A stretch of 64,000 bases of DNA. It comes from Anaerobaca lacustris. Lineage in GTDB: Bacteria; Planctomycetota; Phycisphaerae; Sedimentisphaerales; Anaerobacaceae. The stretch lies in NCBI RefSeq assembly GCF_030012215.1, contig NZ_JASCXX010000005.1:1-64000 (forward strand), given 5' to 3'. Positions 41,885 to 61,634 of the stretch are shown here, piece by piece (the stretch's first letter is position 1; every line of letters begins with the position of its first letter). The notes under the pieces were generated by a model that was not told the DNA's origin, searched no databases, and saw only the letters and a program-made list of their open reading frames with translations. The position numbers and the translations under genes are program-made.

Positions 41885-44422
41885 TCAGGACGGTTTTCGG
41901 TTTTGCTGACAGAATTGGCCCATCAGTTCCATGGCTTTGCCGGTCTTGTCGAGCGAGCCGTCGAGTTGGGCGAAGGCGTCGACCAGTTCGACAAGGGCCG
42001 GATCGGGCTCGACGGTGCCGTACTTGTGGGCGGCGTTGACGATGCCGGCGTCGAGGCCGTACTCCATCGCCTTGGCGACGTAGGCCCGGCAGACGCCGAT
42101 CCTGCGGCCGGGCAGATCGCGCACCGAATTGCTGACGCCCAGCGAGAAGTGCGCGCCCTTGAATTTCGGGTCGCTCTTGATCTTCCTGATCGTCTCGAAC
42201 GTACGGTAGGTGTAGCCCGGCACGCCCGGCTCCATCGGCATGTCGATTGCCAGCGGAAAGACGGTCGAGTCGAAGAAGATCTGCTCCGGTTTGAAGCCGT
42301 ACTTGCCGACCGCCTCGTCGAAAATCCGATGGGCCAGGGCGCAGAGCTCGTCGACCGAGTGCGACCCGCCGGGACCGGTGGGCTTGTCCTCGCTGACGAG
42401 CAGCGCGATGACGGAGAAATCGTATTGCCTCTTTAGCGGCAGGATGCGGTCCATCGTATAGACCTTGACGGAATTCAGCAAGGGCGGGCGAATGACCGTA
42501 GGGGCAGGCCCCTGTGCCTGCCCGGGCTGTGCAGGGCAACCACGGGGGGTTGCCCCTACCCTATACCATTCCTTCAGGCCCGCTTCGAGCACGTCGTCGT
42601 TGCTGCTGTCGATACAGATGGGCACGCCGTCGCCCCAGCGATGCACGAGCCGGGTGTACTCGACCATCATCGCAACGGCCAGCTTTGGATCGTCCTCGCC
42701 GAAGGCGTCGAGATTGACCGCGATGTAATCGGCGCCGTCGGCCGCCTGCGACTCGATCAGGGCGCGGATGTAGTCGAGTTCGGGACTGGGCTGGGTGTAG
42801 GCGTCGGCGCCGCGGTCGCGCAACTGGTGCATGATCTGGCCCGTCTTGGGGATCGATGCGTGAACGGATTCGCCGATCGAGATCAGAGCGTTCTTCATCG
42901 TGTGGTCCTTGCCGAACAGATAGTTGAGAATCGAGGAGGAGTGCTGGAGCACCGGATTGCGGCGCGGGTTGATCGTGGCGCGCAACCGTTCGCGCCCGCC
43001 CTTCTCGGAGGCAGCCGCCTCGTAGACGCGATTGCCGACGCAGACGCGTTCGAGGTTGTTGCCGCAGTAGCCGTCCACGGTGGCGTCGCCGCACGGGGCG
43101 TTGTCGATGCCCTTCTCGCAGTCGCCCATCGTGCAGACGCCGAAGTTCTCGGGCAGGAAGCAGTCGCCGCACTCCTCACAGTCGAACAGGGTGTACTTGA
43201 ACGCCTTCTCACTGGCGTTGAACAGCTTGTAGACGGGGCCCTCGCCCTTGTCGGCGCCGAGAAAGGCCATCGTCCCCTTGAAGGCACGGAATCCGGCGTG
43301 GTCGGGGTCGAGAAACGCGCGGTGCGAGAAATCGAAGAACCGCTTGCCCAGCGTCGGTCGCGGCTGCGACAGAGGGACCGCCCTGCCGCTGTCGTCGTAG
43401 AGATAGAACGCCTCCTTGGCGGGCCAGCAGAGGTTGTCCTTGAAGGGCTCCCAGTCGGCGCCGATCTCGGCGGCGCGTTCGACGATCCGTGTGAACGTCG
43501 CAAAATCGTGGACCCCTCCAATGTCCACACCGGCGGCGCCCATCGCTTTGAACATGGCCACCTGTTGCGCGGCCCGCTCGATGTGGTCGTCGAGCTTCTC
43601 GCTGTAGACCTTGGCGAGAAGCTCGTCGCTGACGAAGCAGCCGGGCAGCTTGATGTCGTGCATCAGACGCGGCGCCGGCGTCAGTGTGCTGAGCAGGTAG
43701 ACGTTGCCGACCACCGGAACGTCGATCCGGCGTTCCTTGAGATAGATGAACAGTTCGAGGCTCTTACGCCAGTCCCAGCCGACCTGGGTAATGAGAAATG
43801 CGGCGCCGCAGCGGACCTTCTTCTCCATCTTGTAGTATTGCTGCATCTGCGTCGCTTCGCTGTACTTGAACGGCGAGACGGCCGCGCCGGCGATGAACTG
43901 ATGCACGCCGGCCAAGGCATCGGGCTTGGCGCCGAGATAGGCGTCGTGATTCATCTTCCGGATCAGGCGGAGCAGCCCGACGGATTCGAGTTCGAAGACG
44001 CCCTTGGCGGCGACGGGTTTGTCGCCCGTCAGCGCCAGCACGCTGAAGACGCCCGCCTTGCGAAAGCCGACCAGCGAGCTGACGATCGCGTCGGCGTTGG
44101 CGTCCTTGCAACTGATGTGCGGCACGACGTCGAGGCCGTCGAGCAGGTGGTTCGCTTCGAGGACGTTGATGATGGCGGCCGGCTCGAGGTTGGCGACGCC
44201 GCCAGGGTTCTGGGGCAGTGCGATCGCGGCAAAGTCGAAACCCTCGGGCAGGACCGCCCTGCCGCCCTGAGCCGCCTCCTGATAGACGTTGAGAAACCGC
44301 TCAATGGGTGCGAAGCTGAACCCCGGGCCGCCGGTCAATTCGGCCAGTACAAGCAGGTCCGACCGCTGGCGAAGCTTCTGTCCCAGACTCTTGTGCTCCA
44401 TTGCCGTCTCCATTGGGTCCAT
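41885..44422 (-). CDS. MetF-MetV-pterin methyltransferase fusion
   Basis: An 845-residue, three-part folate enzyme. Residues 1-310 are methylenetetrahydrofolate reductase-like ('LVLAELTGGPGFSFAPIERF', 'VLALTGDKPV', 'AFLITQVGWD'). Residues about 400-500 form a Cys-rich MTHFR C-terminal/MetV-like domain ('DCEECGDCFLPENF', 'CTMGDCEKGI', 'NAPCGDATVDGYCG'), expected to bind iron-sulfur or zinc. Residues 509-845 are a pterin-binding TIM barrel like AcsE/MetH methyltransferases ('IGESVHASIP', 'YIAVNLDAFGEDD', 'CIDSSNDDVLEAGLK'). Together they fit the methyl branch of the Wood-Ljungdahl pathway or methionine synthesis. Residues 622-642 come from a palindromic repeat. The start at 44422 is uncertain by a few codons. 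Confidence 0.82.
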   Translation of the reverse strand: MDPMETAMEHKSLGQKLRQRSDLLVLAELTGGPGFSFAPIERFLNVYQEAAQGGRAVLPEGFDFAAIALPQNPGGVANLEPAAIINVLEANHLLDGLDVVPHISCKDANADAIVSSLVGFRKAGVFSVLALTGDKPVAAKGVFELESVGLLRLIRKMNHDAYLGAKPDALAGVHQFIAGAAVSPFKYSEATQMQQYYKMEKKVRCGAAFLITQVGWDWRKSLELFIYLKERRIDVPVVGNVYLLSTLTPAPRLMHDIKLPGCFVSDELLAKVYSEKLDDHIERAAQQVAMFKAMGAAGVDIGGVHDFATFTRIVERAAEIGADWEPFKDNLCWPAKEAFYLYDDSGRAVPLSQPRPTLGKRFFDFSHRAFLDPDHAGFRAFKGTMAFLGADKGEGPVYKLFNASEKAFKYTLFDCEECGDCFLPENFGVCTMGDCEKGIDNAPCGDATVDGYCGNNLERVCVGNRVYEAAASEKGGRERLRATINPRRNPVLQHSSSILNYLFGKDHTMKNALISIGESVHASIPKTGQIMHQLRDRGADAYTQPSPELDYIRALIESQAADGADYIAVNLDAFGEDDPKLAVAMMVEYTRLVHRWGDGVPICIDSSNDDVLEAGLKEWYRVGATPRGCPAQPGQAQGPAPTVIRPPLLNSVKVYTMDRILPLKRQYDFSVIALLVSEDKPTGPGGSHSVDELCALAHRIFDEAVGKYGFKPEQIFFDSTVFPLAIDMPMEPGVPGYTYRTFETIRKIKSDPKFKGAHFSLGVSNSVRDLPGRRIGVCRAYVAKAMEYGLDAGIVNAAHKYGTVEPDPALVELVDAFAQLDGSLDKTGKAMELMGQFCQQNRKPS
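42498..42559 (-). repeat. 62-bp palindromic element inside the MetF fusion gene (copy A)
   Basis: The ends GTAGGGGCA and TGCCCCTAC form a terminal stem. Inside are two hairpins, GGGCAGG/CCTGCCC and GGGCAACC/GGTTGCCC, giving a three-way shape. The gene reads through it in frame as 'VGATPRGCPAQPGQAQGPAPT'. Copies of the same 62-base length are at 61120-61181 and 58933-58994. Confidence 0.9.
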
Positions 44423-44645
44423 GATCCGTTTCCGGGCGAGACACATACCACAAACACTGTAGGCTAACAAGTATCTCCGCTTATTTCCATACCAATCATA
44501 TGATTCAGACGCGTGGCAGTCCATCCTCAGAATTGGGTGTGGTGGTTCGATCGACATTTCCATTAGAATAGAAATGGACTTGAACAGACGGATGTGAACG
44601 GTCGTCCCGCGGCGAGTGAGACGACAGACGGGAAAGGAGATGGAT

Positions 44646-46052
44646 GTGCGGACGATATCGATAACGGCGACCGTGATTCTGCTTGTCATCGCTCTGGCCA
44701 CTCCGGGCTTTGCCACGGCCGTCACGGTCGACGGGGCGGTGCGGCATCAGACGATCGAGGGGTTCGGGACATGTCTGATCGCCTGGGTCGGTCGCTTTCG
44801 CGATCTGTACCGCACCGAGGAGTTCCAGAAGCTCTACGTCGAGGGTCTCGGGTGCAATATGCTCCGCGTCAACATGTGGGGCCCGACGTTCGAGAAGCCG
44901 ACGGAGGACTGGACGAAGATCCACTATCAGGATTTCGACATGAGCGCCAACGGGGGCCGGCCGCAGATCTTCGTCGACTTCGGGCAGGGCATTCGTAAGC
45001 TCGATCCCGACGTCAAGATCATCGGCACGGTCTGGAGTCCGCCGGCGTGGATGAAGATCAATCGCTCGATCACCGACACGAGGTCAGCCGCGATCCGCGC
45101 GGGCGGATACGGCGGCTTCGACAACCGCGTGGACCCGAAGTACTTCAGACACTTCTGCAAGTGGATGGTCGAATACGTCAAACGCCACGAGCGAGAGGGG
45201 GTGCCCTTCTACGCGGTCAGTCCGGGCAATGAGGTCCAGTTCACCCAGTCGTTCGAGAGTTGCGTCTGGGATGGCAAGGACTTCGCCACCATCGTCGCTA
45301 TGCTGCGCCAGATGCTGGACGCCGAGGGTTTTGGCCACGTGAAGATCTTCGGGCCCGAGACGATGACCAGCCACCTGTACGAAGGCGGAACAGGCGCCTA
45401 CGTCCGGGCGATCCTGGACGACCCGAAAGCGCTGGCGGCGCTCGACGTGTTCGCCACGCACGGCTACGAGGACGGGGTCAAGGGCGAGATGTCGGCGACC
45501 TCGTCGCGGAAGTTCTGGGACCTGATCGAGCAGACGGGCAAGCCGTTCTGGATCACCGAGGGCGGCACGGGCGATCACGACTGGCCCGCACCGATCCGCC
45601 AGGGGATCGGCAACGCGGTGCACAACGCCCTGGTGGCGGGCCGCTGCTCGGCGTTCGTGCCGTGGCAGATCACCGAGGGTCGCAAGAGCATTCACGCACT
45701 GATGGTGATGAGCGAGTACACGCCCAAAACGTACACGGCGATGCACTACACGAAATTCCTCCGGCCCGGCGCGGTGCGCATCGACGCGACGCCCGGCTTC
45801 GGCGCCGTTCAGGTCGGCGCGTTTCTGCACGAGCAGGCAGGCGAGCTGACCGTCGTGGCCCTCAATCCGACCGATGAGGCGCAGACGCTGACCCTGACCT
45901 TCCGCAACCTGGGGCGATTCGATTCATTGAAGGTCCGTCGCACCAGCGCCGATGAGAGCCTCAAGGAACTGCCCGATGTGCCGGTCCGAAACGATACGGC
46001 CCGCTTCGACATGATCGACCGGAGCATCGTCACCTTCTCAGCCACTCTGTAG
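44646..46052 (+). CDS. Glycoside hydrolase, GH30-like
   Basis: An exported hydrolase of about 468 residues with a signal peptide ('ITATVILLVIALATPGFATA'). The catalytic barrel follows: 'QTIEGFGTCLIAWVGRF' at its start, 'LRVNMWGP', 'GTVWSPPAWMK', the acid/base region 'AVSPGNEVQFTQ' and the nucleophile Glu in 'FWITEGGTGDHD'. A C-terminal beta domain ('GELTVVALNPTDEAQTLTL') is typical of GH30. Likely substrates are beta-glucans or xylans. AAAGGAG at 44633-44639 is ideally placed for the GTG at 44646 (6 bases); the ATG at 44640 has no room for it. Confidence 0.85.
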   Translation: MRTISITATVILLVIALATPGFATAVTVDGAVRHQTIEGFGTCLIAWVGRFRDLYRTEEFQKLYVEGLGCNMLRVNMWGPTFEKPTEDWTKIHYQDFDMSANGGRPQIFVDFGQGIRKLDPDVKIIGTVWSPPAWMKINRSITDTRSAAIRAGGYGGFDNRVDPKYFRHFCKWMVEYVKRHEREGVPFYAVSPGNEVQFTQSFESCVWDGKDFATIVAMLRQMLDAEGFGHVKIFGPETMTSHLYEGGTGAYVRAILDDPKALAALDVFATHGYEDGVKGEMSATSSRKFWDLIEQTGKPFWITEGGTGDHDWPAPIRQGIGNAVHNALVAGRCSAFVPWQITEGRKSIHALMVMSEYTPKTYTAMHYTKFLRPGAVRIDATPGFGAVQVGAFLHEQAGELTVVALNPTDEAQTLTLTFRNLGRFDSLKVRRTSADESLKELPDVPVRNDTARFDMIDRSIVTFSATL

Positions 46053-58230: not shown

Positions 58231-58911
58231 ATGGAAACCATCCTGATCGTTGAGGACGACCCCACGATGTTGCGGGGTCTCAAGGACAATTTCGAGTTTC
58301 ACAACTATCGCGTTCTCACGGCCGAGGACGGCGAGGCCGGTCTGAACGCGGCGCTGGATGCCCGGCCCGATCTGATCCTGCTGGACCTGATGCTGCCGAA
58401 GATCAACGGTTACGAGGTCTGCCGACTGATCCGCAAGGAGAAGCTGGACATGCCCATCATCATGCTGACGGCCAAGGGCGAGGAGTCTGACATCGTTCTG
58501 GGCCTGAACCTCGGGGCCGACGACTACGTCACCAAGCCGTTCAGCATCAAGGAGCTTCTGGCCCGCACCGAGGCCCTGTTGCGGCGGACGCGCTCGGTCG
58601 AGCCGGAGGTCTATCGGTTCGGCGACTGCACGCTGGACATCGCCGCCCGCAAGCTGACCCGCGGTCAGGAGGAGATCAAGCTGTCGCCCAAGGAGTTCAA
58701 GCTGCTGGAGTTGTTCGCCAAGAAGCCGGGACGGGCGCTGAGCCGCGATGAGATCCTCAATCTCGTCTGGGGCTATGATTCGATCTCCGGCCCGCGCACG
58801 ATCGACCGCTTCGTCACCACCCTGCGCAACAAGATCGAACCCGATCCCCACAACCCCGTCTACATCCACACCCTCCGCGAAATCGGCTACAAATTCGACC
58901 CACCCGCATAG
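58231..58911 (+). CDS. OmpR-family response regulator, second of a tandem pair
   Basis: A 226-residue regulator close in sequence to the one before it. The receiver shows 'ILIVEDDPTMLRGLKDNFEF', Asp52 in 'LILLDLMLPK', Thr in 'PIIMLTAKG' and Lys in 'DDYVTKPFS'. The winged helix is typical ('LSPKEFKLLELFAKKPGRAL', 'GPRTIDRFVTTLRNKIEPD', 'YIHTLREIGYKF'). It is separated from the first regulator by a palindromic repeat. Its TAG stop touches the repeat that fills the gap to pyrG. Confidence 0.94.
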   Translation: METILIVEDDPTMLRGLKDNFEFHNYRVLTAEDGEAGLNAALDARPDLILLDLMLPKINGYEVCRLIRKEKLDMPIIMLTAKGEESDIVLGLNLGADDYVTKPFSIKELLARTEALLRRTRSVEPEVYRFGDCTLDIAARKLTRGQEEIKLSPKEFKLLELFAKKPGRALSRDEILNLVWGYDSISGPRTIDRFVTTLRNKIEPDPHNPVYIHTLREIGYKFDPPA

Positions 58912-58997
58912 GTTTCGTCACGGACACCCCCTGTAGGGGCGCCCCCCTGTGGTTGCCCTTCCGGTACCGGGCAGACACAGGGGCCTGCCCCTACGCG
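58911..58997. repeat. Palindromic element with tail, supplying the pyrG stop (copy C)
   Basis: The 62-bp core (58933-58994) is read on the minus strand with the terminal stem GTAGGGGCA and internal hairpins. A 22-bp tail (58911-58932, GGTTTCGTCACGGACACCCC end) is shared with copy B at 61182-61203. It starts at the last base of the response regulator stop and its CGCGTAG end gives pyrG its TAG, so the gap between the two genes is entirely this element. Confidence 0.9.
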
Positions 58998-60763
58998 AGG
59001 CCGGCGACCTGTTTGACGGCTTCGATGCAGTCGGGCAGATCGACCTGTGCGTGGCGGCGTTTCGTGGCGGCCGCGACGAGTCCGACGAACATCGGGCTGG
59101 GCCTCAGCGGGCGGCTGGTCAGGCACGGATGGGCCTGGGTCCCCATGAAGAACGGATGGTCCGGCAGTTCGAGGATCTGCATGATCGGCTGGTCGGGGGC
59201 CTTGCCGGAGAAGACCAAGCCACCGGCTTCGAGCGTCTCGATGTACTTCGGGTCGACCTCATAGCGGTGCCGGAACCGCATGCGGACCGAGTCCTTGCCA
59301 CCGAAAAGATTCCAGGCCACCGTCTCGGGCTTGATCTCGACGTCGCGGCCGCCCAGACGCATGTTGCCGCCCAGGCCTTCGATCTTCTTCTGCTCGGGCA
59401 GGATGTCGATGACCGGCTCGGCGCATTTCGGATCCAGCTCGGTGCTGCCGGCGCCCTTGAGCTTGCAGACGTTGCGGGCGAAATCGATGACGGCCATCTG
59501 GAAACCCAAGCACAGGCCCAGATAGGGCAGGTCGCTCTCGCGGGCGTAGCGAACGCAGGCGATCTTGCCCTCGGCGCCGCGCGAGCCGAACCCGCCGGGC
59601 ACGATGATGCCGTCGACGCTCGCCAGACGCTCGGCCGCGTTCTTGTCGGTGATGTCCGTCGTCTCGATCCATTCGATGCCCACGTCGCAGCCCAGAGCAA
59701 TCCCCGCATGCTCCAGGGCATTGATGATCGAGGCGTAGCTGTCGCGGACGGAGGTGTACTTGCCCGTGATGCCAATGGTGCTCTTATACCTTGCCGTTCC
59801 GATGCGGTCGGTGAAGTCACACCACCTGGCCCAGGCCTTTCGCTCGTGCCGCAGGTTGATGCGGTCCTCGATCTTGAGCAGGCGCAGCACCTCGAAGTCG
59901 AGCCCGTGCTCGCGCAACATCGACGGGATCATGTAGATGCTGGCCGAATCGTGCAGGCTGACGACGCGCTCGAACGGGACGTTGCTGTAGATGCTGATCT
60001 TCTGTCGGGCCTTCTCGTTGACCGGATTCGTTGCGCGGCACGCGATGATGTCCGGCTGGATGCCGAGCTGCATCACCTGCTTGATCCCGAGCTGAGCGGC
60101 CTTGGATTTCTGCTCGCCCAGGGCCGGCGGCTCCAGGATGTACGTCAGTGCGACGAAGCAACTGCTGTGAGGGCCTTCCTCATAGGCCAGCTCGCGCATC
60201 GCTTCGAGGTAGTAGGCGTTCTCCAGGTCGCCGACGGTGCCGCCGATCTCGACGAAGACGACGTCGGCCTTGCTGTCGGCGGCGAGCTGTCGCAGCTTGA
60301 GCTTCACTTCGCCGGTGACGTGCGGGATCATCTGAACGTCGCGGCCGAGGTAATCGCCATGCCGCTCCTTGTTCAGCACGCTGCTGAAGATCTGCCCGCT
60401 GGTAGCGAAATTGGCCTTGCTCAGGTCCAGGTCCAGCATCCGCTCGTACGTGCCCAGGTCCATGTCGGTCTCCATGCCGTCGTCGAGGACGAAGACTTCG
60501 CCGTGCCGGAACGGGTTCAGCGTGCCCGAGTCGATGTTGAGATAGCCCTCCAGCTTGATCGGCGCGACCTTCAGGCCCTTGTCCTGGAGCAGCTTGGCCA
60601 GGCACGAGGAGAAGATCCCCTTGCCCAGCCCACTCATCACCGTGCCCATGACGAACACGTATTTGGTCTTGCCCTTCTTGTAGCCTGTCGGAATCGGCGA
60701 GAAGAATTCGCTCTCCGTCGAGGCGTCACTCAGTTTCGTCAGCAGCTCTTTGCTGTCAGCCAT
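58991..60763 (-). CDS. pyrG: CTP synthase
   Basis: Makes CTP from UTP, ATP and glutamine. It has 590 residues. The amidoligase half shows 'FVMGTVMSGLGKGIFSS', 'GTLNPFRHGEVFVLDDG' and 'VEIGGTVGDLE'. The glutaminase half has the nucleophile Cys418 in 'LGLCLGFQMAVIDFARN' and His545 in 'GTQAHPCLTSRP'. The usual 'HPEF' Glu of the catalytic triad is Cys547 here, and 'KLEGYLNID' replaces the typical 'KLDPYINVD'. The enzyme may thus prefer free ammonia or use another residue. It overlaps kdsB by 8 bases. Its TAG stop lies in a palindromic repeat. Confidence 0.93.
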   Translation of the reverse strand: MADSKELLTKLSDASTESEFFSPIPTGYKKGKTKYVFVMGTVMSGLGKGIFSSCLAKLLQDKGLKVAPIKLEGYLNIDSGTLNPFRHGEVFVLDDGMETDMDLGTYERMLDLDLSKANFATSGQIFSSVLNKERHGDYLGRDVQMIPHVTGEVKLKLRQLAADSKADVVFVEIGGTVGDLENAYYLEAMRELAYEEGPHSSCFVALTYILEPPALGEQKSKAAQLGIKQVMQLGIQPDIIACRATNPVNEKARQKISIYSNVPFERVVSLHDSASIYMIPSMLREHGLDFEVLRLLKIEDRINLRHERKAWARWCDFTDRIGTARYKSTIGITGKYTSVRDSYASIINALEHAGIALGCDVGIEWIETTDITDKNAAERLASVDGIIVPGGFGSRGAEGKIACVRYARESDLPYLGLCLGFQMAVIDFARNVCKLKGAGSTELDPKCAEPVIDILPEQKKIEGLGGNMRLGGRDVEIKPETVAWNLFGGKDSVRMRFRHRYEVDPKYIETLEAGGLVFSGKAPDQPIMQILELPDHPFFMGTQAHPCLTSRPLRPSPMFVGLVAAATKRRHAQVDLPDCIEAVKQVAGLA

Positions 60764-61634
60764 TGGAATCCTGTCCTTGGGATGCTGGGGTGTTGTGGGC
60801 CGGGTCGTTCACGTCCTGCTTGCGGTATCGTTGGACGAAGGCGGCGTATTGCTGGGGGGTGTCGATGCCTTCGGCGGTGTGCTCGACGGTGCCGACGAGG
60901 ATGGCGTGGCCGTTCTCGATGACGCGGAGTTGTTCGAGCTTTTCGGTCTTCTCCAGGGGCGTCTGCGGCAGGGCCGCCAATTGCAGCAGGAACTCTCGGC
61001 GATAGGCGTAGATGCCGATGTGCCGCAGGTAGTGGCCCGCCGGACCGATGCCCCCTCTGTCGCGGTCATAGGGGATGGGACTGCGGGAAAAATAGATCGC
61101 CCGCGCCGCCGCATCGCGCGTAGGGGCAGGCCCCTGTGCCTGCCCGGTACCGCAAGGGCAACCACGGGAGTTTGCCCCTACAGGGGATGTCCGTGACGAA
61201 ACCACCACCTTGACGACGTTGGGATCGGCCACCTGCTCGGCCAGGCGTAGCGGCGTCGCCAGTGTCGCCATGGGAACGTCGGGGTTCTCGACGAGGAGCC
61301 GGGCGAGGAGGTCGATGTGGTCCGGGTCGATTTCCGGCTCGTCACCCTGGACGTTGACGACGATGTCCGCATCCAAACCGGCGACGGCCTCGGCGATGCG
61401 GTCGGTCCCGCTCTGGTGATCGGCCCGGGTCAGCACACACGGGACTCCGAAGCTTTCGGCCGCGCGAACGACCCGTTCATCGTCGGCCGCAATGAGCACG
61501 CTTTGGGGCAGACTGGCCTTGGAGGCCCGCTCGTAGGTGTGCTGGATGAGATATTTGCCGGTGTCTTGGGCGAGAACTTTCCCGGGGAACCTGGTCGAAT
61601 CGTACCTCGCCGGTATACAGACTACGATCTTCAC
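60756..61634 (-). CDS. kdsB: 3-deoxy-manno-octulosonate cytidylyltransferase with a repeat-derived insert
   Basis: Activates Kdo as CMP-Kdo for lipopolysaccharide. It has 292 residues against about 250 normally. The N-terminus 'VVCIPARYDSTRFPGKVLA' binds CTP, and 'VNVQGDEPEIDPDHID' and 'YLRHIGIYAYRREFLL' are conserved. Between 'DPNVVKVVVSS' and 'YFSRSPIPYDRD' an extra segment (about 29 residues, with 152-172 coded by a palindromic repeat) is inserted. GTG at 61634 is taken as start. Its end overlaps pyrG by 8 bases, so the CTP-making and CTP-using enzymes share a transcript. LPS precursor synthesis fits a Gram-negative-type envelope. Confidence 0.92.
   Translation of the reverse strand: MKIVVCIPARYDSTRFPGKVLAQDTGKYLIQHTYERASKASLPQSVLIAADDERVVRAAESFGVPCVLTRADHQSGTDRIAEAVAGLDADIVVNVQGDEPEIDPDHIDLLARLLVENPDVPMATLATPLRLAEQVADPNVVKVVVSSRTSPVGANSRGCPCGTGQAQGPAPTRDAAARAIYFSRSPIPYDRDRGGIGPAGHYLRHIGIYAYRREFLLQLAALPQTPLEKTEKLEQLRVIENGHAILVGTVEHTAEGIDTPQQYAAFVQRYRKQDVNDPAHNTPASQGQDSNG
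61117..61203. repeat. Palindromic element inside kdsB (copy B, with tail)
   Basis: The 62-bp core 61120-61181 starts GTAGGGGCAGGCCCCTGTG and ends TTGCCCCTAC, with the same two internal hairpins as copy A. A 22-bp tail (61182-61203) matches copy C. The full 87 bases are a multiple of three. kdsB reads the opposite strand in frame as 'VGANSRGCPCGTGQAQGPAP' plus Thr. Confidence 0.92.

Follow-up and report, generated by a model that had tools for sequence, protein, structure and literature searches.

The only kdsB gene found in a search of the Anaerobaca lacustris genome carries within its reading frame a palindromic repeat that, judged by its sequence, belongs to the GTAG REP/REPIN class, and the protein turn occupied by this repeat is filled in roughly one in three of the related species. 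The gene lies in the 64,000-nucleotide stretch of DNA analysed here (the window), the features of which are collected in Table 1. As the most probable explanation, with a probability of roughly 0.85, we propose that a GTAG-type REP dimer (REPIN), copied by a REP-associated tyrosine transposase (RAYT), came to lie in a tolerant turn of KdsB, and that selection causes a small number of such loops to be filled repeatedly.

Table 1. Positions of the kdsB insert, its copies and neighbouring genes in the window
Feature	Position	Strand	Basis
kdsB (3-deoxy-manno-octulosonate cytidylyltransferase) with in-frame insert	60756..61634	-	NCBIfam NF003952 2e-84, TIGR00466 2e-62, Pfam PF02348 5e-52
Net 84-base insertion encoding SSRTSPVGANSRGCPCGTGQAQGPAPTR, residues 147-174	61116..61199	-	alignment with the empty sites of G005, G003, G004
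REP dimer (REPIN) core: GTAGGGGCAGGC..GCCTGCCC and GTAGGGGCAAAC..GGTTGCCC, inverted orientation, GTAG at each outer end	61120..61181	.	sequence, inverted repeat, dispersed copies
Tail GTTTCGTCACGGACATCCCCT, common to the copy at the pyrG end	61182..61203	-	sequence comparison
pyrG (CTP synthase), comparison gene	58991..60763	-	family alignment
Second copy of the 87-base unit (91%), between convergent genes	58911..58997	+	sequence match
Third REP dimer of the window, in frame in an MTHFR/pterin-binding fusion ORF (41885-44725, minus): ..WYRVGATPRGCPAQPGQAQGPAPTVIRPPL..	42498..42559	.	sequence, domains

The profile match of KdsB to TIGR00466 was broken by HMMER into two parts flanking the insert, and the alignment points to GTG as the proposed start codon of the gene. 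Compared with the nearest empty site, that of G005, whose protein is 88% identical, the insertion amounts to 28 residues or 84 bases. An earlier inspection of the DNA, referred to here as the sequence-only reading, had described an element of 87 bases and about 29 residues; a unit of 87 bases (61117-61203) does recur at the end of pyrG, but the net insertion in kdsB is the shorter one. Its edges are clean, with the final Val of a strand on one side and the Asp of the native D-x-x-x-R-A-I turn on the other, and the added residues are preceded by VKVV and followed by the D-x-x-x-RAIYFSR turn. The insert is located in a protein gene rather than in 23S rRNA and contains no gene of its own. From the long form of the protein, tryptic peptides such as GCPCGTGQAQGPAPTR are predicted.

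That a palindromic repeat lies in frame inside kdsB, as first claimed from the letters alone, was confirmed by the 62-bp core and its dispersed copies. The inverted-repeat arms (61112-61145 and 61156-61189) are 10 nt apart. The insert forms a hairpin when folded as DNA and as RNA, with an energy that is no gain over dinucleotide shuffles (z = -0.2 as DNA, -1.05 as RNA) because the region is GC-rich, and the free-energy z-score, not being significant, was dropped as proof of a palindrome. The case for the palindrome therefore rests on the copy number and on the exact 9-bp termini (GTAGGGGCA; shuffle p about 0.03). The start of the tail (GTTTCGTC) also opens other repeat inserts at the kdsB site in G002, G090 and G091. 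A reading of the tail as a CGTC tag (CGTCACGGACA) was abandoned, as no paired stem supports it.

The 87-base unit matches its copy at the pyrG end with E=1e-28, and the insert region has 14 matches in the genome in all, which marks it as a dispersed repeat rather than a palindrome formed by chance. Fifteen REP half-sites were found at no more than one mismatch, and the family comprises about a dozen loci, a low copy number for REPs; these counts rest on searches and on about 0.44 Mb of sampled sequence. The exact pattern GTAGGGGCAN12GCC was too strict for a family search, giving two matches and performing no better than the control, and a literature search on the motif GTAGGGGC returned unrelated papers only. 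Translation of each locus placed in-frame copies in KdsB, the MTHFR/pterin-binding fusion, Mfd, two paralogous Ser/Thr kinases and a RAYT-like ORF on contig C48. In all of them the palindrome is read in the identical frame, Val-Gly-Ala (VGA), which is also used in KdsB of G096 and in Mfd of G003. The remaining copies are intergenic or donate TAG stops, as does the GTAG of the copy at 58911-58997 to pyrG. PyrG is shortened by three residues at this REPIN-given stop, while the proteins of G001 and G005 continue for EAC. Matches to the core were obtained in 30 of 89 genomes of the family. The two kinase-TPR proteins, each of 842 residues (L212, L214), have a REP pair at corresponding positions shortly after the kinase-domain match, probably the result of one insertion followed by gene duplication.

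An AlphaFold model of KdsB built with 45 homologues reached a mean pLDDT of 87, and residues 150-174, between strands 143-146 and 178-184, form the sole long internal stretch below 50. The rest of the model matches solved CMP-Kdo synthetases, with 1gqc as the best hit (TM 0.92) and the E. coli structures 3k8d and 3k8e among the others. In the model, the insert is thus a disordered loop between two strands of an otherwise intact fold, which agrees with the earlier proposals that it occupies a beta turn as an exposed loop and that the remainder of KdsB is preserved.

As had been suspected, the segment is absent from close relatives: three members of the same genus (G003, G004, G005) have a plain turn. 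The sequence-only reading had also stated that homologs with an equally long, non-repeat segment at this site would speak against it, and this turned out to be half the case, as G001 and G002 of the same genus have 17 residues there, which are nonetheless encoded by a DNA repeat, a different one made of heptamers (GTCGCTCGTCGCTGGTCGCTCGTCGCT). Given this origin, the claim is not undone, and the site appears as a recurrent harbour for repeats. The insert of A. lacustris (G000) itself has no heptamer periodicity. A GTT[T/G]CGTC left end and the right end (..AAARAI) are common to G000, G001 and G002, and because of the shared right end we infer that an older heptamer insert was probably swapped for the REPIN in G000.

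Across the GTDB family, an alignment-based count found the turn filled in 25 of 75 KdsB sequences from 14 genera, and every one of these inserts keeps a single open frame free of stops, while all ten relatives from the order outside the family are empty at this site. Significant heptamer periodicity was seen in 17 of the 25, and most of the others are palindromic; the repeats include REP pairs, a GATTCC...GGAAT palindrome and heptamer arrays, and in G083, G084 and G063 this palindrome adjoins heptamer arms. Other KdsB loops are filled near residue 88 (about 8 sequences) and near residue 117 (about 7), both likewise between secondary-structure elements of the model. When the KdsB tree is constructed with the loops left out, the state of the turn requires at least 19 parsimony changes, which cannot tell gain from loss, compared with a mean of 21.9 for shuffled labels. 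The state thus flips almost randomly on the tree, and turnover at the turn is about as fast as species splitting in this sample of genomes, nearly all of them metagenome-assembled. In kdsB of a distant planctomycete (L143, 3225-4073), a palindrome-ended insert with TCTGGAGAGGGG and CCCCTCTCCAGA at its ends lies at the same turn. In kdsB of G024 (L021), an AAAATTC array in the loop near residue 88 sets the two halves of the gene in different frames; a change in heptamer units would shift the frame, and the split may represent a pseudogene, slippage-based switching or a sequence error.

KdsB is not the only protein concerned. In Mfd, the hairpin RGGI(I/V)DIYAPL..RIEFFGD of the UvrB-interaction domain carries the present REPIN in G000 and G003, another REP pair in G001 and heptamers in G005, and further, different repeats occupy it in many family members (L239-L268). 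The MTHFR-like loop contains the REPIN in G000 and a single GTAG-type REP in G001, G003 and G005 (degenerate in the last), and is empty in G002 and G004. The same search with PyrG gave matches that cover the full protein and show no such gaps in nearly all genomes of the family. With the Mfd and MTHFR loops filled and PyrG not, the effect is limited to certain loops and does not extend to all genes.

We hypothesize that a RAYT probably spread copies of the REP dimer through the genome, and that the dimer landed in the exposed turn of KdsB or took the place of an older repeat there. One frame of the palindrome (GTA GGG GCA, Val-Gly-Ala...) is stop-free and would encode a peptide rich in Gly, Ala and Pro; kdsB stays open because of this frame and of a net length that is a multiple of three. 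The enzyme should remain active with a floppy 28-residue loop, the translation and near-neutral effect of which are presumed. Selection would remove insertions that are out of frame or disrupt the core, so that surviving copies would gather in the few tolerant loops, and repeat families without kinship to one another would therefore refill these loops time after time in related species. A preference for certain targets may contribute to this mechanism, as may recombination of filled with empty alleles. Presence and absence of REPs differ between related species in kdsB, at the pyrG end and in the MTHFR-like loop, and we infer that the REPIN is mobile.

A candidate for the transposase is the ORF on contig C48 (12304-12984, minus; L206), which has the HxH motif of Y1 transposases and contains a REP pair in its own frame after this motif, with further REPs at its downstream flank. 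It reached 21.5 bits against PF01797, for which the cut-off is 23, perhaps due to the splitting of the ORF by the REPs. Because this score is just under the cut-off, its role as the RAYT linked to these REPs is likely rather than proven. Another RAYT candidate, on contig C17, was set aside in favour of the C48 ORF, no cognate REPs having been seen at its flanks. The C48 ORF itself terminates at a REP-donated TAG.

The position of the inserts in the KdsB turn recurs within a codon or two, which is tighter than loose loop tolerance requires and has to be counted against our explanation. Such exact recurrence would be expected if the turns of KdsB, Mfd and MTHFR were favoured DNA targets, for instance by way of short hairpins or existing repeats, and if target choice mattered more than selection; in G090, G096, G083, G084 and G063, where heptamer arms flank the REPs, repeats likewise seem to have been inserted into repeats. 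However, three unrelated repeat classes share the one turn, the three different genes have no evident common target sequence, and the two further KdsB sites in use are, like the first, loops in the model, so that we regard predominant target choice as unlikely. Somewhat better odds, if still short of even, can be given to an ancestral composite insert of heptamer arms and REP in the g1/g54 lineage that was repeatedly and precisely lost, or replaced when it recombined with empty alleles. The ends common to G000, G001 and G002, the same left array in G090 and G091, and a turn variant of G054 (VTSHS) that is one residue short and may be a scar all fit this history, but the sequences in other genera are unrelated, and a single insert is insufficient for all 14 genera. 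Within one lineage, an ancestral insert can be compatible with the repeated filling of tolerant loops that we favour.

Intervening sequences of rRNA are cut out, and the palindromic hairpin in the mRNA, together with S23p/IVP genes accompanied by heptamer arrays in the same genome, could point to RNase III excision and rejoining of the kdsB message, or to ribosomal bypass. Neither would need the inserts at the turn to be in frame and free of stops, as all 25 are, and because the open frame is kept in every allele we consider removal or skipping highly improbable. An assembly artefact or chimera, suggested by the use of MAG data only, is less credible still, given that many genomes, assembled independently and in different projects, have the same type of insert at this codon and that the copies have diverged (85-91%), unlike assembly duplications.

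Rickettsia palindromic elements (RPE) are palindromic repeats found in frame in many protein genes. The suggested counterpart of RPE holds insofar as a single genome has palindromes within several of its protein genes (KdsB, Mfd, MTHFR-like, kinases, RAYT-like); the element is, however, a GTAG REP pair, and its likeness to RPE is claimed for the manner of working only. Like the GTAG REPs defined by Di Nocera et al. 2013, with Planctomycetes among the hosts (PMC3733652), and the REPINs of Bertels and Rainey 2011 (PMC3116915), it has GTAG at the outer ends, short stems, two close inverted REPs joined head to head, and dispersed multiple copies, some of which donate stops or lie in frame in genes. 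Insertion of REPs within genes is already known from Rickettsia and Opitutus: Di Nocera et al. described intragenic GTAG REPs in Opitutus terrae, Rickettsia conorii and others, noted stop codons donated to neighbours, proposed loop tolerance and reported one same-site case, in Xanthomonas recB (PMC3733652). What differs here is that REPs and unrelated repeats fill one codon position across 14 genera; against the literature searched, both the extent of this same-site turnover and its combination with heptamer arrays appear to be new.

With the KdsB turn filled by repeats of various kinds in so many related species, certain protein loops can be seen as safe harbours to which selfish DNA comes recurrently. 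The orthologous empty and filled sites show that, at defined turns of conserved enzymes, heptamer arrays and palindromes presumed to be mobile have become coding sequence many times over, and since one enzyme offers dozens of natural alleles that either have or lack an insertion, the way in which repeats make new protein segments becomes directly testable. Loop tolerance also joins REP, RPE and rRNA intervening-sequence phenomena in one idea. It is a more speculative and rather doubtful extension that the KdsB turn, the Mfd hairpin and the MTHFR-pterin loop have served as harbours for a long time in this planctomycete family, with several repeat classes targeting, leaving and reoccupying them repeatedly, among these classes heptamer palindromes that lack an ORF and are related to S23p intervening sequences, and with selfish DNA driving a fast evolution of loop length in conserved enzymes.

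The 23S rRNA intervening sequences with an S23p/IVP ORF (PF05635), such as that of Coxiella with heptamers beside the S23p ORF (PMC4990558), share heptamers, inverted-repeat ends and insertion into tolerant loops with the KdsB inserts, which in contrast lack an ORF and lie in frame in protein genes. Five of the seven PF05635 23S-IVP/four-helix-bundle genes of the A. lacustris genome (L102-L106) are accompanied by 7-base tandem arrays no more than 300 bp away, on one side or on both and often inverted, an arrangement that resembles intervening-sequence elements. These arrays are a possible source of those in proteins. A heptamer array at L198 (995-1047; SNESRATSDERRDTRYER) apparently lies in frame within an open frame of 545 residues.
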